This document shows positions 1 through 32,300 of a stretch of 64,000 nucleotides of DNA, one piece after another. Numbering within the stretch: position 1 is the first letter of the stretch; each line of letters opens with the position of its first letter. This stretch comes from Patagioenas fasciata (taxonomy: Eukaryota > Chordata > Aves > Columbiformes > Columbidae), in assembly GCF_037038585.1 (NCBI RefSeq), contig NC_092520.1, positions 62,888,001 through 62,952,000 on the forward strand, given 5' to 3'. The position numbers and the translations under genes are program-made. The notes under the pieces are model-generated. The model saw only the letters and a list, made by a program, of their open reading frames with translations. It made no database searches and was not told the origin of the DNA.

Positions 1-103
1 ATACCAGGACGTATAGAAGAGAAACTTTTCAATAAACAAGTTAATACATGACAGTGAACTTGTCAGGCATCCAAGTTCCTGCTCCAGTACCTGGGTTATA
101 GTT

Positions 104-1180
104 CACAGAATCACAGAATGTTAGGGAGTGGAAGGGACCTCAAAAGATCATCTAGTCCAATCCCCTTGCCAGAGCAGGAACGCCTAGATGAGGTTACACA
201 GGAATGTGTCCAGGTGGGTTTTCAATGTCTCCAGAGAAGGAGACTCCACAACCTCCCTGGGCAGCCTGTCCCAGTGCTCTGTCATCCTCACCATGAAGAA
301 GTTTCTTCTCATATTTAAATGGAACGTCCTGTGTTCCAGTTTGAAACCCATTGCCCCTTGTCCTATCATCGGTTGTCACTGAGAAGAGCCTGGCTCCATC
401 CTCGCCCTTCACATATTTATACACATTAATGAGGTCACCCCTCAGTCTCCTCTTCTCCAAACTAAAGAGACCCAGCTCCCTCAGCCTTTCCTCATAAGGG
501 AGATGCTCCACTACCTTAATCATCTTTGTGGCTCTGCACTGGACTCTCTCCAGCAGTTCCCTGTCCTTCTTGAACTGAGGGGCCCAGAACTGGACACAAT
601 ATTCCAGGTGTGGTCTCACCAGGGCAGAGTAGAGGGGGAGGAGAACCCCTCTCAACCTACTAACCACCCCCCTTCTAATACACCCCAGGATGCCATTGGC
701 CTTCCTGGCCACAAGGGCACAGTGCTGGCTCATGGTCATCCTGCTGTCCACCAGGACCCCCAGGTCCCTTTCCCCTACACTGCTCTCTAATAGGTCATTC
801 CCCAACTTATACTGGAACCTGGGGTTGTTCCTGCCCAGATGCAAGACTCTACAATTTCCCTTGTTATATTTCATTAAATTTTCCCTGCCCAACTCTCCAG
901 CCTGTCCAGGTCTCTCTGGATGGCAGCACAGCCTTCTGGCATGTCAGCTACTCCTCCCAGCTTGGTGTCATCAGCAAACTTGCTGGTATTACACTCTGTT
1001 CCCTCATCCAAGTCACTGATGAATACATTGAATAGTACTGGTCCCAGTACTGACCCTTGAGGCACTCCACTAGATACAGACCTCCAACTGGACTCTGCCC
1101 CATTGACCCCAACTCTCTGGCTTCTTTCCTTCAGCCAGTTCACAGTCCACCTCACTACCTGATCATCCAGACCACACTTT
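104..1180 (-). mobile_element. CR1 LINE, 5'-truncated, antisense
   Basis: On the minus strand the segment encodes the later part of the CR1 ORF2 reverse transcriptase: [10 protein letters not shown] near 1068-1039 and the catalytic FADDTKL at about 978-958, then the downstream domain ([35 protein letters not shown]). The frame shifts near 880-890 and again near 310, so no working protein is made. The element ends with TTCTGTGATTCTGTGAA, the usual CR1 3' tail. It is the longest repeat copy in the window. Confidence 0.93.
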
Positions 1181-1889
1181 CTCAGTTTAGCAGCAGGTCC
1201 AGTCTGGGTTCCTAAAAGCTCGGGTTGTCTGTCTGGTAGTTCACAGACAGCGTGGCTGTTCTAAGTGATGCTTCTGAAGGTGAAGTGCTTCAAATCTCTC
1301 CTGCTTGGGTTTGGTCGAGGTAAAACCAGCAGGTCTGTTTGATTACAGCTGACATGTAACACAAAACAGTAAAGGAAAATGTTGTCTGTCTTTACCTCTT
1401 CAAAATATTAACAGATTGAAAGATTCATATTTTACTGCTGTAGTTAGGCCAGAAGGTTTTATGAGTTAATAATTATGCTCTTGCTTGAAATACCCAGAAG
1501 TCTAGAGCAGAAATTACAGCTGTTTTGAGCTTTAATGTTTCAGATTTCTCATGCATATAATCACTTTAGTTTCTCTTGGGCGATGCTGTATTTTGATTTA
1601 TTGTCTCAATTAAGTAGGTGCCGTAGGACCAGAGGTGAACATCAGCTGGTATTCCTACCGCCTCTGGTGTGCTTTAGAGTAAAAGAAAATATCACAAGAA
1701 TACTGCTCTAAAACAACGCATCTGAGTTAGAAATAGCAGCTTAGAAATGACTCACACTCATAAATCGGTGGTTTGCTCAGAAACCCCTGGTGAAGAAGGT
1801 GTGGGATGTGAAGAGCTTTTAAATGCTGGGAACGATAAATGGCAATTCCGACGAGTTTTTAATTGCAGCAAATTAAAAGGGCCGGGAAG
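1181..1889. other. Sequence between CR1 and CpG island, nothing recognised
   Basis: The stretch is AT-rich, with no convincing exon, repeat or conserved motif. It is the distal 5' flank of NAXD. Confidence 0.5.
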
Positions 1890-2141
1890 GCAGCCGAAAA
1901 GCGCCGTTATGGCCAGGCCGGACACTCCCGCCTCTACCTCGCCCCTCCCGGGCCCGGCTCTGTCGCACAACCGCACACCTTGCGCGCTCGCCCCCGCTCC
2001 CCGAGACCCAGCGGCGGGGGCGGCGGGAGGCCCGCGGGCGCCAGGCCCGAAGCCGCCGGGGAAGGCCGCAGCGGCCCTGTCCGCCTCCGCGGGCGGCCGG
2101 CAGCCGCCGCCGTTACCTCAGCGCGGCCCGCCCGCGCCGCC

Positions 2142-2146
2142 ATTGG
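2142..2146 (-). promoter_or_regulatory. Inverted CCAAT box in NAXD promoter
   Basis: ATTGG, a reverse-strand CCAAT, sits in the context GCCGCCATTGGCTG about 140 bases before the 2287 start codon, a usual distance for an NF-Y site in a TATA-less promoter. Function is inferred. Confidence 0.45.
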
Positions 2147-2286
2147 CTGCCGCCGGGGGGGTGTGGGGAGGCGGCAGGCGGCGGCGCGCCGCGGGGAGGC
2201 GCGGAGTGGTGCCGGGCCGGCGCGCCCGCGTAGGCCCTGCCCTGCCCGGCCCTGCCCGGCCCGGCGCGGAGCCGGAAGCCGCGCCG

Positions 2287-2353
2287 ATGAGCTGTGTGTG
2301 CCGCTTGCCTGCGCGCTTGGCGGCGGGTGTCGGGAGCCCCGCGCTGCGGCGAG
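2287..2353 (+). CDS. NAXD: NAXD alternative first exon, probable mitochondrial targeting form
   Basis: An ATG at 2287 opens 22 codons plus one base, followed by the donor GTAAGA at 2354. The peptide is short, has five arginines and no acidic residue, which suits a mitochondrial presequence. Its phase-1 end joins in frame to exon 2 at 9547, restoring a valine codon. Mammalian NAXD is known to use alternative first exons giving mitochondrial or secretory N-termini, and this fits that arrangement. The start context is weak (C at -3), so part of the product may start at internal Met44 (341-aa numbering) in exon 2, giving a cytosolic form; that is inference. Confidence 0.72.
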
Positions 2354-5300
2354 GTAAGAGGACAGCGCGGAGCGGCGCGCTGCGGGGCCGGCCCGGCCGC
2401 AGCCCCTTGCCTGCTCCCCCGGCCCGGAAGGATGTGGGGACGGGGCGCTGTCACCGCCGGCGCCTTGTCTGTGCTGGCCTTGGCTGCGGCCCTCTGGCTG
2501 CGGTGTGACGAAGGTATAAACATCTCCGCACCGGAGCTTGGCAGGGGGCGGGGTTTGCCTCTGAGGGGAGGCGGGGTGGGCGCCGAGCGGCGGCTGGCTT
2601 GCCCGCTGCTGAGGGGGCCACGGGAGCCTGTGGGCAGGCGGCCGGCCGGGTGGGTCGGTCGGTGGGTGGGTGTTCGCCACGCGAGGAAAGGCCGCAGGGT
2701 GGGGGCCTCGGTCGGGCTCCGCTACGGGGGCTCGGCCGGGGTGTGAAGGAGGCGGCGGCCCCCGTGACGGGGAGGTGGGCTTGGCGCTCCCGCCGGAGAA
2801 CGGTTTCTGAACAAAACCAAAGCGAAAAGGCCGGAGCGGCGTGGGGGCGGCAGCGGGGCCCGGGGGCGGCCCGACACAATGAGACCCACCCCCGCCTGTA
2901 GCGGGGAGCTGCAGGGCCGCTCACCTGCCTTAGAAAGCGGTGGCCGGGGCGGGGGGGAAGCGTACGCAGACCCGGCCACCGGCACCTTCGCAGGCGCCGT
3001 CTCTACCAGCTACAGCGGGGGCTTTTGTGGCGGCCCCTGCGGCTTCCCCGCGCCGCAGGTAGCGCTCGGTGCCGGTGTGCGCTAATGCGGGCGTGCGGGA
3101 GCCCGGCTGCTCGCCCCGGGGCTGGGTGACACGGCGGCCCTGGGTAGGGGGCAGGGGTGTTGTTGCCCGTGCTGGCGCGGCACGGCGCGGCGGTGTGCCG
3201 GGGTGAGGTAGGGCAGTGAGCGGGGCCGCGGGTTTTCGGCTGCCGTGCGCCGAACTGCAGCGCCCTGTGTGTGCGTGGGACCGCGCTCCACTGCGGCGGG
3301 GAGGGAGGGCGGGAGCAGGGAAGGGGGGAGGTGCGCTGTGATGAGCAGGGCCTCCAAGTCCAGTCAGCGCCGTCGTCTTGCCGCTCCCGGAGGAGCCCGA
3401 GGCGGGGGAGCGGCCGCCGCGGCCGCGCACGAATCATTGCCGGAGCTGGGTAGCGGGGTGGCGGCGTGTCCTGCCCCGGGGGAGGGAGCCGCGGTTCCGC
3501 GCGGGCATCCCCGTTGTTTATTTTTTATTTATCATCCTTTTTCTGAGGAGGTCGAGCCGTTGGGGCGAGGTGTTTTGTTATTTTTTTTTCCTAGTGTTTT
3601 GTTTTTTTTTTTTTTTTGCACTCCCCTCCTTTTTGCAGGTGCTCGCAGAACAAGGCGGCGCCTGGAAAGTTTTGTGTGCGTGCGAGTGGCGGCGGCCCGG
3701 GCTGGGATGCGGGGCCCGGGGCCAGGCTGCCCTCCGCTTCCCGCCGCACCGCGGCTGCCGCGGCCACGGCTGGCGTAGGCGCCCCCTGGGAGAGCCAAGT
3801 GCGGGCATTAAACCCCCCTCCCTCCTCCCCGCGCCCTCCTCCGCCCCCCTCCGTCCCTCCCTCCCTCGCTCTCCCCCTCCCTCTCTCTCCCTCCCCGGTG
3901 CGCGGCCATTGCAGTGACCCCGGCCGGCCAAGGATGATCACGAACACGCGGGGCTTCCTGTGGTCGGACCTGGAGACGCGGGCGCTGCTGGAGATCTGGG
4001 GTGAGGCGGACGTGCAGTCGGCGCTGGACGGCAACTTTCGGAACAGCCATGTGTACCGGGACGTGGCCTGCCGCCTGGCCGAGCTGGGCTTCGAGCGCAC
4101 CCCGGAGCAGTGCCGCATCCGCATCAAGGGCCTCAAGCGCCAATACTACCAGGCCCGGGACGGGCTGAAGAAGAACGGGCACGCCCGCAAGATATGCAAG
4201 TACTACGACGAGATGGACCGGATCCTCAGCTGCCGGGGGGGGCCCGACGGCGCCCCCGAGCCGCTGGCCCCGCCACTCGACGGCGCGCAGCCGGCGGGGC
4301 CGCTGGCCGGGCCGCCCACGCCGGGCACGCCGCACAACAGCCGGGAGGTGGACGCCGAGCTGGACGAGGACGCCGAGCTGGAGTCCCCCCGCGACAACTT
4401 CACCGAGGACTCCGGGGAGTGCTCCTCCTACGCCGACCACCCCATCAAGGTGGAGTGCCCCTCCTTCGCCATCCCCGTGCCGCCGGGCGACGGTGAGTAG
4501 CCTGCGGGTTCCCGGTGCCTCGTGTCCTCCCCTCGCCCCGCGGGCAGCGCGGCGACCCCGGGCTCTCGTAGCCCAGCTGCCGGTGCTTCTTTCGAGCTAG
4601 CGTGCTTCTAGTGGCTTCTGTCTTACCCTGCTCTCTCCCACCTCGTCCTCTGGGCTCCGAAATCCGCCCCTGCCCGCCCCCCCCTCTTGCACCTTGCTCG
4701 TCCCTGAGAGCTTTTACTCTCCGCTACCGCTAACGCCGCCTGGAAGGGCAGCGGGCTGCTCGGAGGTGGGAAATGCTGTAAACCGGGTAGGAGGAGATGC
4801 TGGGGGACGGAGACCATAGTGAGTTTTACCGGTGTCTATCAATGGGAAGCCAAGGGGAAAAAGCACAGAGACAAAGTGTCAGGTAGCGCCATATAAGAAA
4901 ACAGGCGTCCTTGTCGCTGGAGGATTTTCCTGTTCCCTACAGACTGTGCAGTTTTGTTAATCGGTATTAAAATGATGATGATGATAATACCTGAAAAATC
5001 TGCTTATTGTTGCAGATGGGTCAGAGTACTGGGGGAGGTGTTTTACATAATTAATTTCTGGAGGTGTTTCAGGAACACTGCTGCTAACTTTAGTGGGCTT
5101 GCAAACAGAAACAGCACCTTGATAAAGCCTGTCCTTTCCTTGCTCGTTCTTTACACTCAGCTCTGTGTTGTGGAGGTTTGGGCTGGGGGGGGAGGGCGGC
5201 AGTGTTATTTGTTTGTTTTAAATCTAGATTAGTGCCGTGGTTTTAATACAAACATGAACCTGTCTTCAGAAGTTGACATCACTGAGGAATCAGCCAATTG

Positions 5301-8300
5301 GTTGACGTTTAACCAGCCTTCTTTTTACACATAAACCTCATCAAAGAGTTGTTTACACTAATGTTCTTTTGAAATGCAAATCCAGAATGCCAACAGACTG
5401 CAACTCAATTTAGATTAATGTAATTACCTGCAATACACAAATGAGGCTATACTATTTAATAGCCTTCACTTAAACCTTTTAAAAGAACAAAAAGACTTCT
5501 GTTGTTGAAGTTTAGTACTACAACAATTAAAAGATGCCTCTATATGTTTCTCCTGTTACCTTTATACCTTTGTAGAAGCTTGTGCTGTTGCTTTGGTACT
5601 CTGAGATAAAAATACCTGAAAAAATTACAGTTCACGCTGAAAAAGTGTAACAGCTTTGTGATGCATTAGGTGCACACCTCATAGGGAGATTTTTTACAGC
5701 TTTCTTCTTAGAAAATTATTTTTCTTCAGAAAAATAATTGTCTGTCTTCTTCTTTTTAGGCTTTAAAGAAATCAATGCTCCAACTATTACCCCACCTCTC
5801 AATCAGCCCAAAAGATCAAAAAAACGCCACGCAAATTTAACATTGGATAAAATGATGGAAAAATTCCTGCAGCAGAGTGTGGATACAGAAGAAAAATTTT
5901 ACAGATATGAAGAGCAGAGGCTCAAAATTGAGGACAAGCGTCGGGAAGCTGAGCATGCTCGAGAGCTCCAGATGTTACAGATGTTGGGACAGATGTTGGC
6001 AGGAATTTCTTCTACCGTGTCACAAAGGTCACAATCTATACCAGCAAGTCCACCTCAGAGGGCGAACCATCGTTCATATGGGGATAACTTTAATTATAAT
6101 GCTATGACAGCAGCACTTTCTCCACCGATAGGTACTTCCTTATATAGCATAAATAAAAGCTAGCTTTTTTAAACTTCTGTGTGAAAGCACTGGTAGTAAG
6201 TAGCTTTTGAAAATAAAAGCTAATTGGAATTATTTAATATTGTGGTGAAGGTGTTTGTTTGATGTAAAATGAAGTTAAAATGTCATTCGTACCATTGCAC
6301 CTGCTTATTTAATACAGATGCATTACTTACAGGAAATTTTAATGAGCGAAATCACACCTTTTGGACCACATAAACATTGGGGACGACTTTGCACATTCAC
6401 GTCTCTGTAAAGTGGAGTTAGGACAAGTTTTATATGTAAAAAGCAAGTAGCACATTTGCTGAAAGCCATCTGGAAACATTAGGTACCTTGTAGCGGAAAT
6501 TCTGCTGCTGTTGAAGTTAACAGGCCTAACCCTGTATATGAAGTTAAGGCTGTGCGTGTGTTTTTCCAGGGTTGGGAAAAGAGTGGAGTTTTGCCTGCAC
6601 TGAAGTAAGTCAAAATCCAGCTTCTTTAAAATAAATTTATTTAAATCGAAATTGTGAATCTTTTAAATACCATATTGTACTAGGTGTAATAGGAGATGAA
6701 AATATTGGCATGTATTTTTCTTCCACATCAGTTCCTTTATAAATTATTTGGTTGTCTGAATTTATTTTAAAGAAAAAGGCAAAGCAATAACGCTAGAATG
6801 GGTGTTTATTGACAGACTTTTCTTTCTGTACCTTATTTGTGGGCCAGAAGCTGATAATCGGATATTAGCATTCATTAACAGACTTCTCGGGATCTGTGGC
6901 TCCGTGTCATTTATCTTTATCATGGTCTCTTTGTATGTGGAGGTAGAGTGTGTGGGCAGGAGGAAAACAGGGATACTCTGTCAGTGCTGAAACTGGAGTC
7001 AGCTTGGGGCTCGGTGGTTGTAGTCTGTGGCATGGAAACGAAACAAGTCTTGTTCTGGTTTAATTCCAGATTTTGTACTGCTTGGAAGAAAAAAAAACAT
7101 GGTTTGAAAAAAAAAAAACACAAACCAAAACACCAAAACCCACACCAAAAAAACCCACCCAGCCTCAGTGATGAATAGCACTCCAGCATGCCAGATCCTA
7201 AAGGGCATTCTGTGATTCCTGAAAGGATCCTGGAGCCTTTTCAGTTCTGCGTTGCGTTTTCCTGTACAATGCACAGGGGACGGGATGGTCAGGCCCGTTG
7301 AGGGTTTAGGCTGGCTGACTTGGTTCTGTTTCTTCTTGACTGGATAGTTGATCTGTAGCATTCCTTGATGACAGCAGACTTTTGTAGATAAATTAAGGCA
7401 TGCATATGGATTCTGTGTTTTAAATGTTGTTTTTACTTTAAAAGGAAACCTGAAGTGCTTTAGAAAATCCCTTAGGAAATCATTTGAGGTTCTAGGCTCG
7501 GGTGATGATACCTACAAGGCTTTACTATTACTTCTGAAAGGTTTTTCCTGGAAAGAGTTCCGTTATCTTTAGAGACTTGAAACCAGAGTTCAGTTTGTAT
7601 TGCTGGACTTCATCATATAGGTGTATAATGATACTAGACTGCGCAGAAATGCTTTATGTATTTAACTGTAGCCAGAGCAACTTACGATTCCAATCTTTTA
7701 ATTGGTGAAGGTGTAACAAAGCATATATAAAAGTGAAAGTAACGCTTCAGGCAGCACATCTTTTAAGGAATTAAGATTTCAGTTGTTTATGGCTAAATAT
7801 ACCCCAGTGTTTCTGTAGGTGAGTGGGGCTCTAGTAAGAATTGCTTTTTGCATAATTCTCTGTTTTCTCTCCATGTGTTATGCAGTCACTTTATATTTAC
7901 GTACAAACAAAAACCAGCAACTAAGAAACAGAGGACCTTCTTAATAACATAGCAGTTTGAGGGTTACAAGCTGCATGATAAATATATTTCTTGTGTAGCT
8001 GAAAACCAGTGAGTGTATGAAGTGTGATTTAAAGAAAATAATCTGCCCTATTTCCAGAGGAGATGACTGTGTTGTTCTCCTCTGGGTCACTGCAGTGCTA
8101 TTTTGGCCATAATCCAAAGCAGGGTATTTTTTTTCTTTTACTTTTTTTGTTTGTTTTTGTATCTCAGTAGGAATGGGATGCCTGTATTATAGAAGGATTT
8201 TAAAGGCAAAAGGCCAGGAGTATTTATCATTATTGGACACTAAAGTATTTTATTATTGGAGATTAGTGTCTGGTTTAGCTTTAGGTTCTGTGGGAGACAA

Positions 8301-11300
8301 AGATGCTTTCTGCTGATAACGCAGACATGGGGAATTTTTAAAATTTTTTTTGTTTTATTAAATTTGTTTCCCCCATTATGTCCAAAATTTTTTGAACAGT
8401 TTTTCCTTTTTTTTTCTTTTTCCTTCCCTGTTCTCTTTTAGATTTTGAAATTGGGGGGTGAGATTTCTAAGTTTTATACAGCTGAAAATAAAGAGTATTG
8501 TGGGAGTTATTTTTTACTTAATTATGTGTTACTATATAGCAGTTCCTCGAAAGCTGTTTAGAAGATCTGTGAAAAAGAAAGTAAGCATAGCTACGGTCTA
8601 GGAGACTAATACTCATGTTCATATAAGCCACCTTTCTGAACAGAATTGAACAGTTAATAAGGAGTGTTCTTGAAAAATAAGAACTTGGTCTTTTAGTGCA
8701 TTTACTACAATTTATAGTTAACACTTTGTTGATAGGAATACTGATCTTCAAAATTTGTCCCTTGTTAGGTAAATGGTATAATTCTCTTCAGTCGTACTTG
8801 CTGAAATACTTCTTTTTTTCTAAATTTTTATGGTCTTGTAACAGTAATTTGAATATGTAGCCTTCTGAGTGCGAAGTTTTAATATGTACTTTGGCATGTA
8901 GCTTTGCAACAGAGATCTTTAATTGTATTATAGCTAAAAATTATCTTTGTGTGATATTTGTAATGTTTGCATCTGGTGTTTTGGAGTATAGTTTTGCAGA
9001 AAGACTTTCATTATGCTTTGTAACGACTTGCCAAAATAAAAAAGCAGAGAGATAGGCCGTGATTCGGCTGAGAGGTGGGAGTCTTTAAAGGGAAGCAAAA
9101 AATAAGGTAGGGGATACGCTTAAAATGTGGTTTTAGTTGCTCCATGCTTGCTCTGTGTCTGCATGTGTTTATTCCTTACTAAGTCTACCTGTTTCAGTTG
9201 AGCTTAGTTATGGAAGTGATTTCAGGCTGAACTAAGAAGATATTTCTAGTTACAAAATGTTCATGTAACTATTCTGGGCTGTTTCTTTCTGTACCTGAGC
9301 CCTAAATTAGGACTGTGAGCAGTCAGTGGGAATATTCTCTGCATCAGACCCGACATTCAGTTTTAAAAAGATCACCTTCCCTAGTTACTCCCTGTTTTAA
9401 AGGCCTCAAAGTGACGAAGCATTTGTTTTTTGGGAGTATGTCACTTTGTATATCTTTGAGTGATTCTCTTAGTATGAGTGCTTAAAAGAAATGCTCATGG
9501 TAATTTAAGAAAGAACATACTTTAATACTTATTTTCTTCTTTTCAGTTATAGAGAGATCGTTTTCACTGCACAGAACACACTCTCTAAAGGATATGGAGA
9601 ATATTTTTCAACTGGTGCGCAATGTTATCCCTCCTCTAACAGGAAAGAAGCATAAAGGTCAAGACGGACGTATAGGCATTGTTGGAGGATGTCAAGAGTA
9701 AGTTAAACAGAAATTTGATTTTTGTTTCTGAGAGAGTTTGAGAATGTCATAAGTACTTGTAGAAGCCATTCAAACTCACATTTAAAACATGAGTATTTTT
9801 CAGAGGGCTTTACTAGGCCATCATCGTGACCGTGCACGCTTAGGAAAGAAAATGCTTCCCTGCAGTTGTGTTGCAAAATTTTGGTAGTGAATGTGGTTGA
9901 AACTTAGAACACTGTGTTTACCATCTCTGTCTTTTTTGACCACAAAACTCACTCTGATTTCAGCATTATTCTTTTCCCATTGCATGATGAAGTTATAGAA
10001 TAAGTAGAACAGAGTAAGACAGTGGCACATCTGATTTTTTTTTTTTTTTTTTTTTAATATATTTTGGTGTCTTGGGACCTGGGTCTCTTAAATCAGGAAT
10101 AGAATTTTTTCTTACTGCACACTTTTTTTTTGATAAATGATAGTGTCTACTAGATTCTGTCAATACCTGGTGTTATTTTCTGGAGTAACAGAAATAACAT
10201 GTTTCAGGGTAAGAAGAGATACAGTGTAAATCAGTTAAATGCTTTACTGGCCTAGAAATTAAACGGGCTCTGTTCTTTCTTGGCTACATTCAGTAATCTG
10301 CACAATACCTTGAATGGGCCACTCCACCTTTCTGTTTTTCATTTTTCCCTTTTGAAATAGAAGTGGCATCTTTCTCCTGTGAAAGAGATCTGCCATTAAC
10401 AAACATTCTGTAAAGGGCAAAAAGGTGCTGTCTTACAGAGGGGCTGAGTAGTCAGGAGTTAGTTTTCCTGTTGAGCTTAGGTTCTGGCTTCTTCACAGAA
10501 GTAGGCACCTCCGAAGGGTGATTCTGGCCATCTCTCTCTCTCTAGTCATCGTAAAGAGAGTTTAGGGCAACTGGAACTGCAGTTTAGGCACTTCAGTTGA
10601 GCATCTAAAACCAGATGCGGTTGGTCCTGGTCACAGATTCCAGATTTGGCTCACAGGCAGTGCTTGACTCTTTGTTTTGTCTCTGAACTTTAAAGTTGGT
10701 TGTCTGAGAAGAGTTTACTTTTTTATGGTAGGATTTTTATAATTACTATGAAAGAATCAGATGGCTCAGGTGAAATCCTGTGTCTCTGAAATCAAAGCAA
10801 GAGTTAAGATTGGCTTTGATCTGGCAAGATTTTATCTGTCTTTTAGGGCAAACAGAAGAGAAAGCTTTTATTTTTTAAATTTGCTTTTGAATTTGGTATT
10901 TCATTATGGCAGTCTGATTTCCAGATTATCTGCTCTCATGACTGTGTTTCCTAACCTAAATTGTATTTCATTCTAGATACACTGGAGCACCATATTTTGC
11001 TGCAATTACAGCTCTCAAAGTGGTATGTGTTCTTCTTTATCAATCCAAAATGAACGTTTCATCATTTATATTGGCCAAGTGCCATTTTTTAAAAGCATTT
11101 TTTCTGTGCTGCACATTAAATTAGAGTTCTAAAAGGTCTTATATTTAACAGAGAAAACCCTTAGTCCTGGATTTGTGTAAATACTTTGTAATTATGTGTC
11201 ATTTGCTATGTTTTCTGTGAATATTTTCTCTATATAAGGGAATGTTAGATATGTCAAAAAATTGAAAATTTCAGGGAGAGAACAATTTTATCAGAGAGTA

Positions 11301-14300
11301 AGATAGGAATTTTCAAAACTTTATGGAATATTTACTGCAAAAGTGAACAATAAAAGAACTTCAGATTAGTGTTTACCTTTATGCTTTCAGTGCTGCAGTC
11401 ATACTTACATAATATATATCTACTTTTCAGTACTCTCTATATGGTGTGTTAGTACTTTCAGTTCATCATGTATGTTTTTGGTTTGGTTTTTTTGTTTTTT
11501 TTTTTTTTTTTAAGATTTGTTTCAATAAGTAGGTAACCAACCCAGGTGTTCCAGCCACCCCTGCAGGATGCAGTCCTTTAAGGATTTAAAACTGAAATAG
11601 ATTATTTAGTGATCTTATATAAGATGCTAAGGCCACTCAGCTTTCTGTTCACTGTGTGCAAATACAGTAGCATACTAGGAGGTCTTCTGTTGAAGTAACT
11701 TGGTCTCAGATCATTACATCTGCACGTAAAGAGTCATAGGATCAAATCTCTGCATTGCTTAGTAGATTGAAATGTTAAATGTATAGTAGGAAAGCAGAGG
11801 AGACACTTTCTTAACCTTGGGAAATTTCAGTTTGCATCAAGGCAGATACAAGATCAGGCTTTCTGGTTGCTGCTTACATAATTTTTATATGTGTGCCTGA
11901 TTTTTTGAGTTGATACCAGAAGCTTGAGGCTAAACTCAGCTTTAATCTTTATTTAACTTAAGGGGTGTTGCTGAAATTGTGTCAGCTTTTATCTGATACG
12001 GATTTGGACCATTGAGTGAAAATGGTAGGATTGGAAATGACTAGATTGCCATAGCCACGTTTTACAAGTATATTACGGTGTTATTTTTCCTCTCTAATGT
12101 AGCTTGTCTCTTGTTCAGCTGTGTTCTTTTGCCTTCCTTATTTTACGTGTGACATTTTAGTCTTTGTTCATCTGCAAAAGAGAAACATTTTTCAAGTGAA
12201 TAAAGATTCAGGATCTGTGTTTTCAGACATCCTATTGGTGAGAAAGAGGAAAAAAATATATAGGAAATTAGAGACAAAAAAAAATTCTCCAAAACATTGC
12301 GTGGTAGTCTAAACCAAAATGCAAAAAGTAATAAAGTTTGCTTTGGCTACTGAGAAGTAAGAATTCAGGTGAATTATTCACTGAGTAAACTTTGGAGTAA
12401 AAATCTAATAATTCTGTTTGCAAATTTTCTTTTTTAGGGTGCAGATTTATCCCATGTGTTTTGTACCAAAGATGCAGCAACAGTAATCAAATCATATAGT
12501 CCAGAGCTGATTGTTCATCCAGTTCTGTAAGTGATTTTATCTTTTGTTTAAATGAGCAAGTTAGGATTACTAGTTTGAACATTTCAGTCTGACAGTTGAT
12601 CAGTTTGTGTTATTTCTTTTCTGAGTTACAGGGTGGGTGAGCTGGAGATTACAAAAACCCATGGGTTTATCCTTTCGTTACAAACAGTTAGATGTTTAAT
12701 ATAGAAAAGTTTTTTAAAAAATGGAGATCTTGCTTTCCACTACTTGCTGACATGTGTTCTGTGATTGTAATGCATTTAACTGTGAACAGCAAAATCCAGA
12801 ACTAAGAATCACTACAAGTCAGCATTTTTGAATCTGCATTTGAAAGGCAAATAGAGTATGTTCTTTTGCTTCTTTAGTCCTGATAGTATTTTACAGTAGT
12901 GTGGGTTTTTTCTCTCACTACTGTGTATATAGTAATTTACACTAAAATGCTGGGGAAGAGAGATGCTGATTCTCATTTTTCTTCATGAATATGTTGCATT
13001 AGGTACACACCTACTCCTGGGAATAAATGGATGTTCTAAAATGATCTAAAATACAGGGGTTTTTAACAAGAACATGAAAAGTTTAATGAGCAGCTGTCCT
13101 AATTGAGGAAATAAGTGTGTGCTTTCCTGAATTAGTGTTCTGAAATATGTTTTTGATTGATCAGCTTTTATAGGATAAATTGTTTCAGTTAGGTGTTATT
13201 ACGGTTTACAATTAGCACTGCAAGTGGGGATTAAGATGTGTGCCTTAGGTATGTGTCCCTGAGTTTGGCTTGCACCAGTGCCTGTCAAAGTCTGTTGGTG
13301 TGCATAGCAAAACTGTGATAATGCTGGAAGAAGCATAATTTAAAGTGGTGTTTGTCAGATATTGCCGTCAGGATGGATTTACGACAGTAGAAATATTTCT
13401 GTGTCTGAGAAGAAGAATATGATCTCCCTTATCGGGATGCCTGTGGTTGGAAGCTGTACGTTTGTTACATTCTAAAGGTGGGTTTCATTGCTGTTGGTGC
13501 AGAGAGAGGTGCTTAGAAAGAAATCAGTTAAACAGACAGATATCAAGGATTGTGTTTTGTTGTTTTATTTTTGGTTTGGTGTTTTTTGTTTACTTTTTCC
13601 TCTTTTTTTTTTTTTTTCCCCCCCTCAAAGATAGAAACCTATGAGTTTGTGGATTTTAGGCAGAGTAAAAAAGGTATTTGAAAGTAAGGGGAGGATACAA
13701 GGGTAGGGTTTTTACCAGTCCAATTGCATTAGCCTCCAAAATCCAGAAGGGACATCTTCACTTGATGATCTGTCTGACATTGTATGATGACAAACTAGAT
13801 GGAGAATCTTAATGGCAGTATGAGCTTGTAACTTACGTTGTCTTGATGGATGACACTCGGAATACAGTATATGGGTGTCTTGTGTGGGAAGGAGTTGACC
13901 TTGCCTTAGGAGAAGCATTTTTTCATATGCTCGGCATTCTTGATGTCTGTGGTAATAGAAGAGGTTAATAGGAGAAACAGAAGCAGCACAGAGAAAAGGG
14001 ACAGAGAAAAGGGAGGTGAGGATGTGTAAACAGTGACATTTCTGTTTGTGGAGGTCCAGATTGTGCCTACTAAATAAGGGTATTTTTTTATACACAGATT
14101 CTCAGTGTCTTCTGTGGAATTCAGATTTTAATGAAAACTCTGATCTTTCTATTTGCAAAGAGAACTTTTGATTTTAAGCTTCAGCTCTATCTATAAATTC
14201 CTCCAGATGTACAAAGTACAGTGAATCTAGGAATTTTCATATCCATATAGCTTTAAGTCTGAAATGTAATGTTTAATACTTTTATTACAACTCTGATTAA

Positions 14301-17300
14301 TTTCACCCAGACAGCTGGCTAATTGCATAGAGGGATGGATCTGTAAATATTGTTTATGTGACATTCAAAATGAAAAAATGCAAATATCAGAATGTTCAGA
14401 TTTTGTTTGTTAAATTTTCTCATACATATTTTTATCTCTTCTGCTTCATTTGAGGAAAAGAGAAAAGAGTTTTTTCTGGTTAGAAAGGAAAAAATCTTGA
14501 CTGACTCTATTGAGCCCAGGTTTTATTCAAATTTACACAAACAGCCTATTTTTCTCATAAGGTCCTTTGTCTTCAGTGTCACACTTTTCGTATGATCTTT
14601 TATATGTTGTGGAGCCGTTTGAGTTCTGCAGGCACGGCCAGCCGCTCTTGATTCAGAGCCTGATCTCTTAAACAGTCTTTGTACTTTTCTCCCGGGCTGC
14701 ACTTCACGCATGGAAGAACCTCCGGGTAAAACCCACCGAGCAGCTACATCATTGTTTTCTTTTGTGTCTCTCCTTAAAACTTTGCTTTGTTATGATTTCT
14801 CCATGACCCTTCGGAGTAACTAGGTAGCCGTTGTACCACTCTCTTCTTATGCTAATCATAATTATGGGCCCGTATTACTCCTGAATTCGCTGTTTGAACG
14901 GCTTGGCATTTTGCCAGGGTTCAGCTGCCATTTTGTACTGCCAGGAGTCTGACATTTTATCATCTCTGCAACTTGGCTGCCACCACCTTTCCCTATGGCC
15001 TTCACCTCGCAGGGGATCACCTCCAGGGATGAACATGCTCTTTTTTTTGGCTGCTGCCCCCTGAATGCGAGGGCTCTTCTGGCTCGTTAGAGCTGCTGTC
15101 GCGGCTCTTTGACGGCACGACTAGTGAAGGTATGTGAGGGCTTGAAGTTGCACTGTTGCATTTCAGGTCCTCAGCAAATGTCTGTCACTTCAAGGATGCA
15201 AGGTATGTTATGTGAGAAAGATTGAGTAGGATTGTGGAAGGAGGGTTATGAAGAGGAGCATCCATCTTGCAGCATGGCCAGGGCAATTCCGTGTGCTCCC
15301 AGCTGCAGGCCATCCTGGGATTCCTTTTGGTGCGACAGCCTGTGCTGGCGACACCCGTAATGCAAGTTTCTCTCTGTTTTTTGGTTTGTGACTTAATTCC
15401 CTGTTACTGGGGGTGAAGGTGAAAGAGCTGGGACTGCCTGGGATCTGGAAAGATGAAGTTCAATACCTGACTCTGTGTGTCCTCGCCACCTGAGCTGACC
15501 ATCAATAGCTGGGGGTCTAGGGGCCATGAGTAGTCAATATGACCAGTAGTAGCTTTTCCTTTTTATTTAGGGGTTCTGTCAAATGCATTATGGTCCCTTC
15601 CGTGATAACTTGGTATTAATGAAAGCATTAATTAAAAACTGAGCAACTAACCAGTTCAGTATTTTTACTCTCTGACTTTTTGCTGTCCCGTGGAGAAGTG
15701 AAGAGTGTGTATTGCGGAAGTCGGCATCTTTTGAATAGCGGAGTATACTGAGTCTTGGTCAAAGCTGCTTTGCCCTTGTCACCATTACCCCTGGTTTGCA
15801 TTGCATTTTTCTTTTTTCTCAGCTAATGTGCTCCTGCTGTAAACTGCACAAATACAGACAGGATAAAACTTAACTTTTGCATTTTGTTAAGTTTTATTGC
15901 AGGCATTTTCTGTTTGGATATCTGCTGTAAATGTGTAAGTACTTTCTTGCATTAGTGTTGGGAACTTTCTAGAGAATAGTTTCCAGGGGCTTTTTTGTAT
16001 TACCTGTGTCAATTCACAGGCTCAGATCAGGTTGAACAGACTCCCTGGATATCTATGTTGGGTTAACTTATCCTGTCTTGATAGGCAAGTGATCACAGAG
16101 TTAAATGAGCTATATGAACCCAGCTGGTTATGTTTTAAAAGAAGAGAGAATAGATCTATTGTGTTAGATTTTCTTCCTGCAAGGACTTTTTCATAATGTT
16201 ACAGAGTTTCTCTGTAGGATTGAGATACTACTGAGTAGCCCACTTGTAACCTGGTTGTCAGACAATTTGTGGTCAACAGTCGATAATACACTTTGATCTC
16301 CAGAGTTTCATCAGAGAAGTAGAATGAGATGTCATGTCATTAATTTATTGTGGTCCTGAAGAAGTCCGGTAATTTTTCCATGATCTCCAGAAACATCACC
16401 CTTGAACTGTTAATAGATGTGGATTTAGAATTATTAATACCTTCGTCTGAGCTGGTTTTATCTATGGATCTGTATGGACTAGGAAAGACTTCCAGAATTA
16501 CCAAGAATTTTAGAGTTAATTGCGGAGTTCTAGTTTTGGTTTGGATTTGTAAAAGGATTATTTTTTCTAGTTTGAAATAAAAATAACTGGGGAGAAAACT
16601 GATGAATCTGGCCTGTATGTTGGAGGCCAGTTACCATCAATGAAGAAGCTTAGCTTAGATCAGGGTTACTGGAACATATTTTACCTACTTTTATTGGGTT
16701 TTGTTTATGTTTTGATGATTTGAAAAAATCATTAGAGTGAATCATGGATAGCGAGCTCTTGATAAGTTACTTGAGCACTTCTAACCAAGTCTCTTAAAAA
16801 AACACAGAACAGTTAAGATTTTTGGCCCTTTAATTCATTACATGGAGACGAGATTCAAAACCATCGGTCCTTTGTGGGAGGAAGCTCATACCTTATAGTT
16901 GTGTTAGCTAAGGACACTTCTTAAAAGCTTCTTCTGTGTAATGTGGGCCTAACCTCTCTTTTGAATGAGAGAAGTTAAGGAGAAAGCACAGATTGCTCCG
17001 ATTACCAAAAAGATGGCTCCCGAGTGACTTGACTGCTGGATCCCTATGAGACCTGCAGAAAAGCTGAAGGCATAAACTTTGTGGTTTTTTTCCTCCCCAA
17101 CCTAATTTAGACAGCAGACTAGATAGGAATCACATGAGAAAGTTCTTGTTGGCCTTTTGTTTGGTTGGTGTTTTTTCTGTTTGTTTGGGGGTTTTTGTTT
17201 GTTTTTGTTTTGTTTGGTTGGTTTGTTTTTCGTCATTTTCCTAAGTACTTACGGGGAGATAAAGGTCAGTTTGTATGTGCTGACTCAGAAGTATACTTAA

Positions 17301-20300
17301 CCTGTTTCTAATCCTGTTGTGCAGTGCCATGGACAAAACTTGTTCATCGACCTGTTTCCTGTGTCAGCAAAAAGCTGCTGCTGCTTTGCTGTATGCTGCA
17401 GAGTGAATAAAAGACGAGAGGTGTATTCATCTCATACTCCCTTCCTCTCTTTTGTTGCAAAGGCCTTTATCCCAGGTGGTGCTGACAGAGGTTTTGCCAC
17501 CTCCTCAAAGTGTGTGAAGCAGCCAGAGATTTTTAGCATCAGTGAGGGGAGTGCTGCTGTTTTTGCTGCTTTCTGATACGTGAGAGATATACATACATGT
17601 ATAGGAGCATTGTACTCTGGTCAGATCCTGGCCAAATTCATCTTTCTGAACACTTGCCATACTGTTGTGATTCGACACCAGGATTAGGTTTCTTTGGTGC
17701 TTAACCTTTCTTGAGTTTGAGTGAAGACAGGCGTGCCTGGGATTTGCTTTTGCATTTTTTTTTAATTATTTTTTGAAGGTTTTAGGGTCTCATGCTTGTT
17801 TTTTTTTTTTTCCAACTGATAATCAGCAAAGCAGATATTTAGACTGAGACTTGTTCTCTCTTCTCATGTGTCCACAGATGATTTGAAGTACTCTAGTGTG
17901 CTGAGTATTGATTCAGCTATCATCTGTGCCTTCGGAGTTGAATGTAAACTAGAGGGGGATACTGATGTGATGAAAGCTTGTCACTTTATTTATTGGTTTT
18001 CACATTTAAAAAAAAAGTGCATTAGTTTTTCTAGGGATATTTTAAGTCTCTTTCATTCTGAAGGAAATTACATTGTCAGCTTCATCCTGTCACTTTTAAA
18101 GTCGCAGGTTTTGCTTGACTGCAGTCCATTTGGAAGAATATTTGACAGATTCTACTAATCAAGTCAGTATTAATAGGTCATGACCTTTGAAAACAGAGGT
18201 CAAGACATTTGGTTATCATTATGCTTGGGGGCGACGACTCTCATATCACACATTGGTAATGCGATTGAGATTAAAACATACAACTGCTTCAAGTATTTGA
18301 AAATATCTAAATGCAGGTTGTAAAACTATTGCGTTGATACCTGTGGTACCTTTACAAGGCTAGGTAAGGTTGACCTTGAGTGGTGTTGTCATGTCTGTGT
18401 GAGAAATCTCCGAAAACAGTCAAGCAATAGCTTCTCCTTTGGGGCTCTTTGTCACAGGGTGTGAGAGGCTCTGCTCTGTGTAAGAGAAATGACCCTGTTT
18501 GTATAATGCATATTAAAGAGGGTTTTGTTTGCTCTGATGTCTATAGCATGTTGACAATCCCATTCCTAAAGAAAAAGAAGATCTGATATCTCAATGCGAG
18601 TCTGGTGTCCAGGTAGCAGCTGCGGAAAACATTTTGGGTTTTTGTCATTGTTATAATGATATAAAAACCGCAACATGGTAAATACGGCATTTTTTTCTAA
18701 ATGTGTACTTTAAAGGTCATTCACAGTCTGGATGCCTTGAAGGTAGAATATGGAGCAAGTAAAGACTGTGATATCTGTGTATGAAGAGCAACCTCGTGCT
18801 GTGAACTTGTGACACCAGCGCTTCTCCTGGATGATGGGCTGCTGTTCTTACTGCTGTGTTGTTAATATTCAGATGAGGCCTAGCAGGTTCACTTCTGGTG
18901 TCTAAGTTAACTTATTCAATAGCTGAAAAGGACCTTTTGATTTGCATAGTATTCAATCCCTCTCTCATTAGGGTCTTTGTTGTTCTTTCATTTTCTTCCC
19001 TGTAATTTAGTCAGATTGTAGCAGGCAAATAGGCATTGTCTACCCAGCATTTGCAGATAAAACACTACTGAAATATCTTTCAACAGCCTGGTAGGAGAAA
19101 ATGACCATTTTGTCTTCAAAACTATTTTGTGGGCATTTTAATATACTAATCTGAATTTACTAAGTGTATCTCTTTGTGGTCTCTAATTGCATCCAGCCAA
19201 GTTCATGCCACTGTGTTGTCACTGATATTTGCTCTACCTGATTGAGGTGCTTGGTGAGACCCGTGGGTTGATAATGGGATCACTGATCTTTTCTAGAATA
19301 AGTTATTTCCAGTTCTGTTCATGAGGCCGAAAGAGGCTGCCTCAGGCTTCTGGAAATTTGGAATTAATTTACAAGAATGATGACTTAAACATTAACAAAT
19401 ACAGCTACTCTTTATAGTTTTAATTTTATGCTCAAATATTTTTTGAACTTCTTTGTTTTGCCTTTAATTCTTTTGACCTAACCTTTCCAGAATAATCTCT
19501 TTCCCTATCCTATTTACCCAGTTTCCAATAATGGCCTCACCTGAGGTTTGCCACAATAGTTAATAATTAGCTTTCTGAGATAACTACTTAAATTCTAGAG
19601 CTACACATTATGTCCCGTCTTTTGCTCTTTTGATGTACTGTATAACATGACAGGATCTAAATGTCAGCAGGTCTAACATTTGATTCACATTAACATAATT
19701 ACCTGCAGTGCTTGGACAAACAAAACTGAAACTCTTTCATCCTTAGATCAGAGACTTTTTTCCCATCTTTGAAGATAAGACTCTGGGTTGGCTTTGGAAA
19801 CTGCCCGCTTAAAGTGGCTTTGCCTGAGTTTACGTAACAAGACTTTTGCAATGGTGCATTTCAGTGCATTTGGAGTTGCTTCAGTCACATCAAGCGTGCA
19901 CCGATAATGAGCAGAATTTGAAAAATACGCTCTCCAGCAAGGAGCTGTACAGTTCATCAGGTGACAGCACCTTTTGCTTGTGTCCCATGTCCTCCTCTAT
20001 CAGGAGGTCCCATTGATTGGCGTTTTGTGATGTCCAAACCACATCTCTGATCACTAAGGTGGCTCCAGCTCTGCCTAAAAGACATGTGAAAAGCTGCGGT
20101 CCTGCTGCCTCCTGTCTGCACTGTCACGCATGCTTATCTACTATTTCTGTAGCTCCTGGTTACACCTATACTGACTTCACGTTTTCTTGTTTCTATGTAA
20201 AATTTGACAAGGCTGCACCTTATCATCGTTTTTCCTTTCCCTCCTCTAGAAAGCAGAGACAGTAACTGTCATTCATCCTGCATGAGGAAAGCTGCTGTGT

Positions 20301-29300: not shown

Positions 29301-32300
29301 TGCTTGCTTCCTTTCTGGAAGAGAGGTAATGATTAATAGCAAGAATGGCACTGTGTAACTCAGATTACGTGGTAAAATCAACCGGGTCCTCAAACCACAC
29401 ACTTGTTCCTCTTGCTCAATTCTCAGTCTTTGTTTTAGCTCCAAGAAAACATCCTCAGTACTAGCCTGGGTTGTTCTTTTGGCTCAGGCCCTGCCTAGCT
29501 GCCATTTATGCCTGTTGCTGTTTCTCTTTCCCCAACCTCCTTGCATTGCAGTGCTACCCTCAGCCAGTCATTTGCCCTTAAAGATCCCTGCTATCTGTTG
29601 GGATATAAATTTCAGAAGTCTCATTTTCCACCCATAGTGTTGTCATCTCAAGGTTGTGTGGAAACGTCTTGGCTGTAGTTAAACGTCTCGCAAAGGCTGG
29701 GAGAGGTTTGGGTCCTTGTTATGGATTACCTGCATCAAGTGTGCCCACAGAGAGCCCGTTTGAAATTTTCTCTTTCAAATGGGTTCTTGGTTCAGTTTCA
29801 ACTGAGGTATCAGCCTTTCTGTGTTTGCTTTTGGTTAGTTGGATTACTTGCCCCCTGTGAAGCCTCCTGCTTTGAGGATTTAGGCAACACTTTCACAGCC
29901 TTAATAAATGGTGAGAACGGGACCAGGTGCTTCAGTACATTATCTGCACTAGCTTTTGCAAGATCAAGAGGACTACCTTTTGTGGTCGTAGCAATCTGTT
30001 AAAGCCAAATCTGCTGCAGTGGACCTTGAGAAGTATTTTCCTCTTGATATTTCAACAACCTCCAGGTTCAGTGTGTACCAAGTGTAAGACACTTGAGAAG
30101 CATAGCAGGCTAATGCTGCAGTTGGTAGATAATTGTCTGTGGTACCTACTACCATACACGAATATGAACAACAGGGTGATGAGGCACTGGAGCAGGTTGT
30201 GCAGAGAAGTTGTGGATGTTACATCCCAGGAAGTGTTCAAGGCCAGGCTGGATGGGGCTTTGAGCAACCTGGTTTGGTGGAAGGTGTCCCTGCCTGTGCT
30301 GGGTGACTTGAACTAGATGATCTTCAAGGGCCATTCCAACCCAAACCATTTTATGATTCTGTGTGTTACTCTTTGGAATCACTGCTCGTGTCAACTCAAG
30401 ATAGCAGAAAAATTATTTACAAGAAGCTTAATTCTTCAGCGTGGATCAGGTGCATTTGCTTCCTGCCCTGCTTGTACCCTCTGGAAAGTACTCTGCAGGT
30501 TCTTGCTGGGGGGATTCAGCAGTTCATTGGTAACTGAAGTAGCAGTGAGGACACACCACTTGCTGCTCTCAGCGCTCAGCTAGGAGGAGGTGAGGTGGAT
30601 GGGGTCTTGTGCCTGTGATACTGCAGAGGCAAAAAACAGAGGGTGTGTACATGCACCCACTGTTGAGAATGTGTGTGTAAACTGTAGAATCATAGAATCA
30701 TCTTGTTTGGAAGAGACCCTCAGGATCACTGAGTCCAACCATAACCTAACTCTAGCACTAAACCATGTCCTTAAGATCCTCGTCTAAATGCCTTTTAAAC
30801 CCCTCCAGGGCTGGTGACTTCACCACTTCCCTGAGCAGCCTGTTCCAGTGCTTCACAACCCTCTTAATGAAGAACTTTTTCCTAATATCCAATCTAAACC
30901 TCCCCTGGTGCAACTTGAGGCCATTTCTTCTCGTCCTATCACTTGCTACTTGGGAGAAGAGACCAGCCCCCTCCATGCTACAACCTCCTTTCAGGTGATT
31001 GCAGAGAGCGATAAGGTCTCCCCTCAGCCTCCTTTTCTCCAGGCTAAACAGCCCCAGTTCCCTCAGCCGCTCCTCATCAGACTTGTGCTCCAGACCCCTC
31101 ACCAGCTTCATCGCCCTCCTCTGCACTCTAGTGCTTCTCTCAGCCTCTACCCAATCTCCAGGATTGATGTCTGTACCATAAGTAGTACCCAGTGAAAAAG
31201 TGCTCTATTACTGAGCAAGCCACCTTGCTTTCAAACAGCCTGATGAGAGTCAGAATTTGTGTACATCTTCACTGAAGATGAGGCAGCTGCTGGGACAAGA
31301 TGCAGTTCTTTCTCTGTGATGTTGGTACTTGGTGCAGATGAAGCTTGGGAATGCCAACTCGAGGCAGAGAGATCTTCTTGGTTGTACTAAGAACTATTGC
31401 TGCTTGTGCTAAGAACTATTAGTATTCTGTGGCTTCCTCACAAGTATCTTGATTAGAAAAACAGTGTTTGAAAATATGCGAACAGGACCTTAAAGACAGG
31501 TTTATGCAGCTTGCAAGCAAAATTTATTTTTTAATATATGTAATGGATCTTGATGAAAGTCATTCACAGTGAAGTGGGATGTTTATTTGCTTTCTGTGTG
31601 TAGGCGTATAGTGTTGTTTAATTTGATTTTGATACTTAAAAGCATTTGTAAACAAAACACTGGAACTGGATACTTTTTCAACTCTTTGTGAGCATCATTC
31701 AGCCAGAAACCCTAAAAAGAAATTGGCAGTGATAAATTCCAGAGTTCACTTAAAGTTTATGTTTATTTGTTTTATTTTAAGACAAAATGCCAACAGCTGA
31801 CCATGAGTATCTTAAGCCAAATGTAACATTAACATAATCAACCATAAATTGGAAACCTTGTAGGTTTTGGTTTGTGAGTGCAAACGTTCAGTGGATGAGA
31901 CGATATAAGAAGGTGCCTTTAATTATTCTGATTTAGATCTTTCACTTTGGAGTAAACAGGATTATTGCTTAAGATGGATTTGAATGTATTTAGGGATAGA
32001 AGTATATAACTGTAGCTTCTCAAGTGCTGTCTGGTTGATCATAAACGGGGGGGGCGGGGAATAACTGAGGAGGAATGGTCTGGTTTTTTGCATAAGTAAG
32101 ACAGCATTTCAGAGGATTTTACTTTGTTTTCTTGTATTCTTTATATTCAGGCATTACTTTCAATTATGCCACTTCTTTAAGAATTTAGCATATGATCGAG
32201 GCAGATATTAAATTGTTAGGTGCAGTTTTCCTCAGAGTTTGACAGCAAGTGATCTACTTTGAACTCAAAAGGGGAATCTACAAATGGATCATTCTCCCCC

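Follow-up and report, generated by a model that had tools for sequence, protein, structure and literature searches.

Does the first intron of NAXD in Patagioenas fasciata hold a second gene, and is the Myb/SANT-like protein that it would encode a regulator of the host or a relic of a transposon? The locus lies in the window analysed here, which is the whole stretch of 64,000 nucleotides at positions 62,888,001 to 62,952,000 of contig NC_092520.1, and all coordinates given without a contig label refer to this window. From the evidence set out below, we can conclude that the intron probably carries a real, intact gene with two coding exons on the same strand as NAXD (hereafter the nested gene), whose product would be a nuclear DNA-binding regulator and whose transcription would end at 6212. 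A host gene, not a transposon, is its likeliest identity; descent from a Harbinger element is possible, though unproven.

Coding exons and splice signals of the nested gene

Joining 3934-4492 to 5760-6163 gives an intact frame of 320 amino acids, which is exactly the two-exon, 320-codon frame that a first-pass annotation of this stretch had drawn. Its claim of consensus splice sites was borne out as well. When splice matrices were applied to about 7.9 kb (about 1800-9700), the donor of exon 1 (4492, reading ACG/GTGAGT) ranked second of the 447 GTs and the acceptor of exon 2 (5760, reading TTCTTTTTAG/GC) second of the 497 AGs. The strongest acceptor of the region, ranking first of the 497, is located at 3639; because it precedes the Myb ATG by 295 bases, it suggests that the nested gene has an intron in its 5′ untranslated region (UTR) ending at this site. 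At the other end, the AATAAA at 6212 comes second when all 44 such hexamers of the window are ordered by a home-made score for downstream GT. The features of the nested gene are as follows.

3639..3933, + strand: stretch of the first coding exon that is probably 5′ UTR, following the acceptor CTCCTTTTTGCAG/G
3934..4492, + strand: coding exon 1 (ATG at 3934; 186 codons plus one base)
3961..4224, + strand: Myb/SANT-like (trihelix) DNA-binding domain, amino acids 10-97, PF13837 (Myb_DNA-bind_4)
4345..4428, + strand: acidic linker with approximate bounds, read from the translation
4444..4455, + strand: IKVE in the linker, fitting the pattern of an acceptor site for the small ubiquitin-like modifier (SUMO), a putative function
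4493..5759, + strand: phase-1 intron
5760..6163, + strand: coding exon 2, including the stop codon at 6161-6163
5807..5830, + strand: basic motif PKRSKKRH, nuclear-localisation-like, read from the translation
5843..6025, + strand: long helix or coiled coil, from the predicted helix at residues 28-88 of the exon 2 product
6212..6217, + strand: probable poly(A) signal, AATAAA with a GT-rich downstream element

The 301-amino-acid stop-to-stop frame of the GC-rich exon 1 was matched in length by 7 of 300 dinucleotide shuffles, and the 141-amino-acid frame of exon 2 by 1 of 300. Frame length alone is weak evidence of coding in a GC-rich stretch, whereas the domain and the codon structure are strong evidence. 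The GC content at the three codon positions is flat at 3640-3933 (0.72/0.78/0.76) and changes to 0.61/0.42/0.95 in the Myb domain and 0.77/0.56/0.99 in the linker; a coding-type codon structure, of which 3640-3933 shows none, switches on at ATG 3934. A translation start further upstream was rejected, since the stop-to-stop frame opens at 3595 but codon structure starts only at 3934. Moreover, the three-base periodicity of exon 1 is clear, with none of 500 shuffles as strong.

The same observations bear on the idea of a pseudogene or processed copy, which we consider highly improbable: the frame is intact over two exons with an intron between them, the splice sites are strong, and a poly(A) signal follows. 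Protein searches of the 1.45-Gb genome revealed nothing else that is nearly identical to either exon product, and hence no parent from which a processed copy could derive; a retrocopy was rejected because the gene has an intron and its poly(A) signal lies in a suitable context, and because these searches gave no parent copy.

The predicted protein, its host gene, and its proposed expression

The trihelix-like domain proposed in the first-pass annotation was recovered by Pfam as Myb_DNA-bind_4 with an expect value (E) of 1.3e-21 and a score of 77.3 bits, compared to a curated cut-off of 27. A weak MADF match of the protein (E 0.079) falls below its cut-off, and Myb_DNA-bind_5 (PF13873) has no listed match at E up to 10 in this search, whose filters drop most matches above about 0.1. 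Among solved structures, the sole convincing match is the GT-1 trihelix domain (2ebi and 2jmw), obtained at E 3.3e-5 with a single query and at 9.5e-11 with a seven-sequence profile. A single-sequence AlphaFold2 (AF2) model of exon 1 alone places helices at 12-22 and 24-33, 38-50, 57-79, and 88-99, at low confidence (predicted local distance difference test, pLDDT, 47). Two tryptophans, W10 and W22, are invariant in all seven aligned Myb/SANT domains of the genome, the eighth, a divergent exon on contig C48, having been left out of the alignment.

Beyond the domain, the acidic segment and the nuclear localisation motif noted at first pass can both be read from the translation. The SUMO-acceptor pattern is psi-K-x-E, with which the IKVE of the linker agrees. 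The coiled coil that had been proposed is predicted by AF2 as a single helix of 61 residues (28-88 of the exon 2 product), with a block-mean pLDDT of 90-98 over residues 31-80. Family knowledge predicts that the protein binds DNA via the trihelix domain, enters the nucleus, and pairs via the coil.

The location of the gene, on the same strand within NAXD intron 1, was likewise confirmed by locating the NAXD exons. The host gene is NAXD, as judged from two matches: downstream exon pieces, once joined, hit PF01256 (NAD(P)H-hydrate dehydratase, E 1.7e-39), and the first of these pieces, joined over 139 residues, hit an NAD(P)H-hydrate dehydratase of solved structure (E 1.8e-33). A Pfam scan of the unspliced stretch 9401-19401 gave no match, which is expected since the exons are short. 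The exons that define the intron are given below.

2287..2353, + strand: candidate NAXD coding exon 1a (ATG at 2287; donor GAG/GTAAGA at 2353, phase 1), exon use presumed
2432..2513, + strand: candidate NAXD coding exon 1b (ATG at 2432; weak donor at 2513, score 0.1, phase 1), exon use presumed
9547..9697, + strand: NAXD exon 2 (acceptor at 9547, donor at 9697)

The nested gene is wholly contained between the donors at 2353 and 2513 and exon 2 at 9547. Both candidate first exons join exon 2 in frame at phase 1, and the donor of exon 1a ranks third of the 447 GTs. The N-terminus of exon 1a is one that we take to be mitochondrial-presequence-like, and that of exon 1b is signal-peptide-like; NAXD seemingly has a choice of two coding first exons that agree in phase, one of each kind. 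A CpG-rich stretch (2000-3933; 74% GC, CpG observed/expected 0.90) spans NAXD exon 1 and continues into Myb exon 1, which has 71% GC and a CpG observed/expected of 0.97.

Transcription of the nested gene would start in this common CpG-rich stretch, either from a start of its own or from NAXD exon 1 spliced to the acceptor at 3639. The poly(A) signal at 6212, within the intron, would end the transcript and separate the Myb gene from NAXD, and competition between splicing and polyadenylation in the intron could decide whether the NAXD or the Myb product is made. The 320-amino-acid protein would be imported into the nucleus through its basic motif, its C-terminal helix would pair two or more copies, and its trihelix domain would bind DNA, with the protein acting as a sequence-specific regulator of transcription or chromatin. 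The acidic, SUMO-type linker may recruit or switch partners. Transcription, translation, DNA binding, nuclear import, pairing, and promoter sharing are all steps that we infer. If the gene is transcribed as predicted, the NAXD locus would yield a nuclear DNA-binding protein as well as an enzyme repairing damaged NAD(P)H; in this lineage, any knock-out, promoter study, or variant call that falls in NAXD intron 1 would then affect two genes.

Relatives in the genome and the question of origin

The genome contains eight PF13837 matches at E up to 0.001, including the nested gene, and five of the eight, at three loci, are, as a raw count, in or run into enzyme genes. With the exon 1 protein as query, seven genome matches were obtained at E up to 1 among the best candidates scored, one being the query itself and the other six showing 31-49% identity. 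A viral-contig scan with exon 1 returned six stretches matching a pattern, none of which is a relative.

A second Myb/SANT plus coiled-coil gene is found on contig C5 (C5:26648017-26650391). Its domain is 40% identical to the trihelix domain of the nested gene, and it follows the same plan of domain, acidic linker (here with IKCE), basic stretch before the coil, and coil; the two genes also have in common a phase-1 Gly^Phe junction, which splits a glycine and is followed by phenylalanine. In layout, the C5 gene thus appears to be the nearest to the nested gene. A genome search with exon 2 recovered only itself and the C5 coil exon (C5:26649925-26650140), the latter at E 0.44. The alignment of these two scores 89, whereas the maximum in 2000 shuffles of the coil part is 71 (none of the 2000 reaches 89); the shuffles preserve composition and not heptad order, so the result lends support but falls short of proof.

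From the C5 coil exon the open frame (416 amino acids across the two exons) continues into an ACCS-like exon whose donor reads GTGAGT. We take the joined stretch to be ACCS; it has itself no PDB match and no Pfam match. A piece about 11 kb beyond it on the same strand matches Aminotran_1_2 (2.4e-6) and plant 1-aminocyclopropane-1-carboxylate synthases (3.4e-5). The C5 locus may encode a transcription-factor/enzyme fusion or be an overlapping gene pair. It differs from the nested gene in that its coil exon runs on into the ACCS-like exon, whereas the nested gene ends in a stop and a poly(A) signal of its own.

This arrangement raises the prospect that the Myb exons serve as alternative exons of NAXD, with exon 1, or exons 1 and 2, spliced to NAXD exon 2 so as to make a Myb-NAXD fusion. 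The donor at 4492 and the acceptor at 9547 are both of phase 1 and would join in frame, although a phase match has a 1 in 3 chance. Myb exon 2 holds a further phase-1 donor at 6131, but a weak one (-0.4), and the exon ends in its own stop with a good poly(A) signal. The open frame of the C5 relative into the ACCS-like exon speaks for a fusion; taking both sides together, we regard it as unlikely in the case of NAXD.

The third locus comprises three Myb/SANT exons in an intron of a gene that we take, from its motifs, to be PPAT.

C4:30307119, + strand: Myb/SANT exon in PPAT intron 1, antisense to PPAT
C4:30314817, + strand: Myb/SANT exon in PPAT intron 1, antisense to PPAT
C4:30325530, + strand: Myb/SANT exon in PPAT intron 1, antisense to PPAT

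They are flanked by PPAT exon 2 at C4:30304819 (-) and exon 1 at about 30338300-30338400 (-), and they are mutually alike, probably as tandem duplicates or as exons of one gene. Like the nested gene, they occupy intron 1 of a gene for an enzyme, and their domains are 35-37% identical to that of the nested gene; unlike it, they are on the strand opposite to their host, and they have no coil exon in the 40 kb scanned, where exon 2 finds no match. The region (C4:30304819-30338391) is close to PPAT exon 1 and PAICS. Myb/SANT exons in PPAT intron 1 and leading toward ACCS provide a searchable pattern for the spread and expression of the family.

The first-pass annotation had pointed out that a Myb/SANT-like domain plus a coiled coil is the layout of PIF/Harbinger DNA-binding proteins and of host proteins domesticated from them. 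The resemblance in layout holds; a transposase, inverted repeats, and a second copy were not found in the searches described here, and the domain is Myb_DNA-bind_4, with Myb_DNA-bind_5 not listed. A six-frame Pfam scan of positions 1-9500 gave no transposase domain, only Myb_DNA-bind_4 (+) and a piece of RVT_1 (-). A comparison of 2500-3933 with 6164-9500 by exact 11-mers, from which imperfect or decayed repeats could escape, revealed only poly-T and one lone match as flanking inverted repeats. A current transposon was rejected on these two results, together with the lack of further close copies.

An old domestication is a different matter. The nested gene could descend from open reading frame 2 (ORF2) of PIF/Harbinger, whose product binds DNA as a partner of the transposase. 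Such an origin would not conflict with a host gene today. In passages of PMC9710019 and PMC9179366, such second proteins have about 300-400 amino acids and a Myb/SANT/trihelix domain, and aid nuclear import. Furthermore, DDE_Tnp_4 (PF13359) sequences are present in the genome, with six matches. Against descent of this kind, none of the six is on contig C1, which carries the nested gene, no transposase domain is seen in 1-9500, and terminal inverted repeats were not found by exact 11-mers, although an old domestication would erase them. In addition, the phase-1 junction common to the nested and C5 genes suggests an older pair of host genes instead. Overall, we hold Harbinger descent to be a tentative possibility. 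Two of the DDE_Tnp_4 matches form a pair at C5:28772921-28773965, on the contig of the Myb/ACCS-like gene and about 2.1 Mb away from it; the pair is possibly HARBI1.

Several points weigh against a two-exon regulatory gene whose closest kin is the C5 gene. The AF2 confidence for exon 1 is low, the AT-rich exon 2 has a weak three-base periodicity that 32 of 500 shuffles equal, and the splice matrices do not come from a trained model. Splicing of NAXD exon 1a or 1b to 3639 would let the NAXD ATG open an upstream frame of 68 or 73 codons ending at 3778; it ends before the Myb ATG, so Myb translation would depend on ribosomes re-initiating or scanning past the NAXD ATG, or on a start site further downstream, and the upstream frame would lower translation from 3934. 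As for kinship, domain scores do not clearly single out the C5 gene, since they are nearly tied (63.7 bits for C5:26648044-26648328; 63.2 and 61.5 for two PPAT-intron exons), and local tblastn places the C5 gene third (75.5 versus 76.3 and 75.9 for the PPAT-intron exons). A phylogeny of the eight domains has no well-supported branch and two very long ones, and leaves the nested and C5 genes ungrouped. The match of exon 2 to the C5 coil exon is only at E 0.44, and the junction phase was compared with the C5 gene alone. The find can be described as real but not exotic, its main interest being the relatives of the same genome in or against other enzyme genes.

Elsewhere in the window, fragments resembling the reverse transcriptase or 3′ end of CR1 long interspersed nuclear elements occur at 194-1260 (-), 30758-31204 (-), and 51511-51879 (+), of which only the first is confirmed (Pfam RVT_1). 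The stretch 59664-59996 (-) is presumably CARS2; it has no Pfam or PDB match.

Comparison with known systems

Within the genome, two further genes have the Pfam domain in common with the nested gene at different loci. One, on C31, has a PF13837 match and is 49% identical to the nested protein over amino acids 5-65; the Pfam match covers the domain only up to position 60 of 89, so an intron probably interrupts the domain, and the gene carries an insert. The other lies at a separate locus, at 10.8 Mb on C4, and also matches PF13837. We take them to be MSANTD2-like and MSANTD1-like, respectively. The divergent Myb/SANT exon on C48 (C48:75002870-75003178, -) shows weak MADF and Myb_DNA-bind_5 matches, both below cut-off.

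NAIF1, MSANTD3, and MSANTD4 belong to Myb_DNA-bind_5, and no PF13873 match that would place the nested gene among them was listed. The nested gene resembles PIF/Harbinger ORF2 and NAIF1 in size and layout and in combining a Myb-like domain with nuclear import, as far as the passages cited above describe them, and differs in that no transposase, repeats, or copies were found with it and Myb_DNA-bind_5 was not listed. With the plant GT-1 trihelix it shares the domain family, as the profile search indicates, and the likeness is limited to the domain.

An ordinary annotated vertebrate gene with mammalian orthologs, perhaps located elsewhere, is quite conceivable as an identity for the nested gene, although we put it at somewhat less than an even chance. 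The first-pass annotation had instead proposed a lineage-restricted factor, gained in sauropsids or lost in mammals, which the nested gene may be. No open-licence PMC paper was found that combines an MSANTD name with NAXD or CARKD, and nothing on the nested gene was found in that literature. The main text of Mudge et al. 2019 (PMC6886504) mentions none of NAXD, HSPA14, Myb, or SANT, and PMC3933685, which deals with nested genes on the opposite strand, does not name CARKD. In favour of this identity, entries in PMC12328898 and PMC11242833 list human MSANTD7 (A0A1W2PQ72) as an alias of HSPA14 (GeneID 51182), and MSANTD7 is named as a Myb/SANT gene in these two papers and in PMC12632626.

A broader reading, rather doubtful at present, is that vertebrate trihelix genes have come to lie, several times over, at the 5′ ends of metabolic or housekeeping genes (NAXD, PPAT, ACCS, and human HSPA14) and borrow the CpG-island promoter of the host. 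The NAXD promoter would then give either the NAD(P)HX-repair enzyme or the nuclear regulator, depending on whether 2353 or 2513 is spliced to 9547 or to 3639 and on polyadenylation in the intron, and in the ACCS case the outcome would be a fused protein. MSANTD7, judged from the name and the entry, is like the nested gene in being a Myb/SANT gene within the entry of a housekeeping gene and unlike it in having HSPA14, not NAXD, as host; if the alias reflects a common locus, HSPA14/MSANTD7 would be a fourth pairing of this kind with an enzyme or housekeeping gene.

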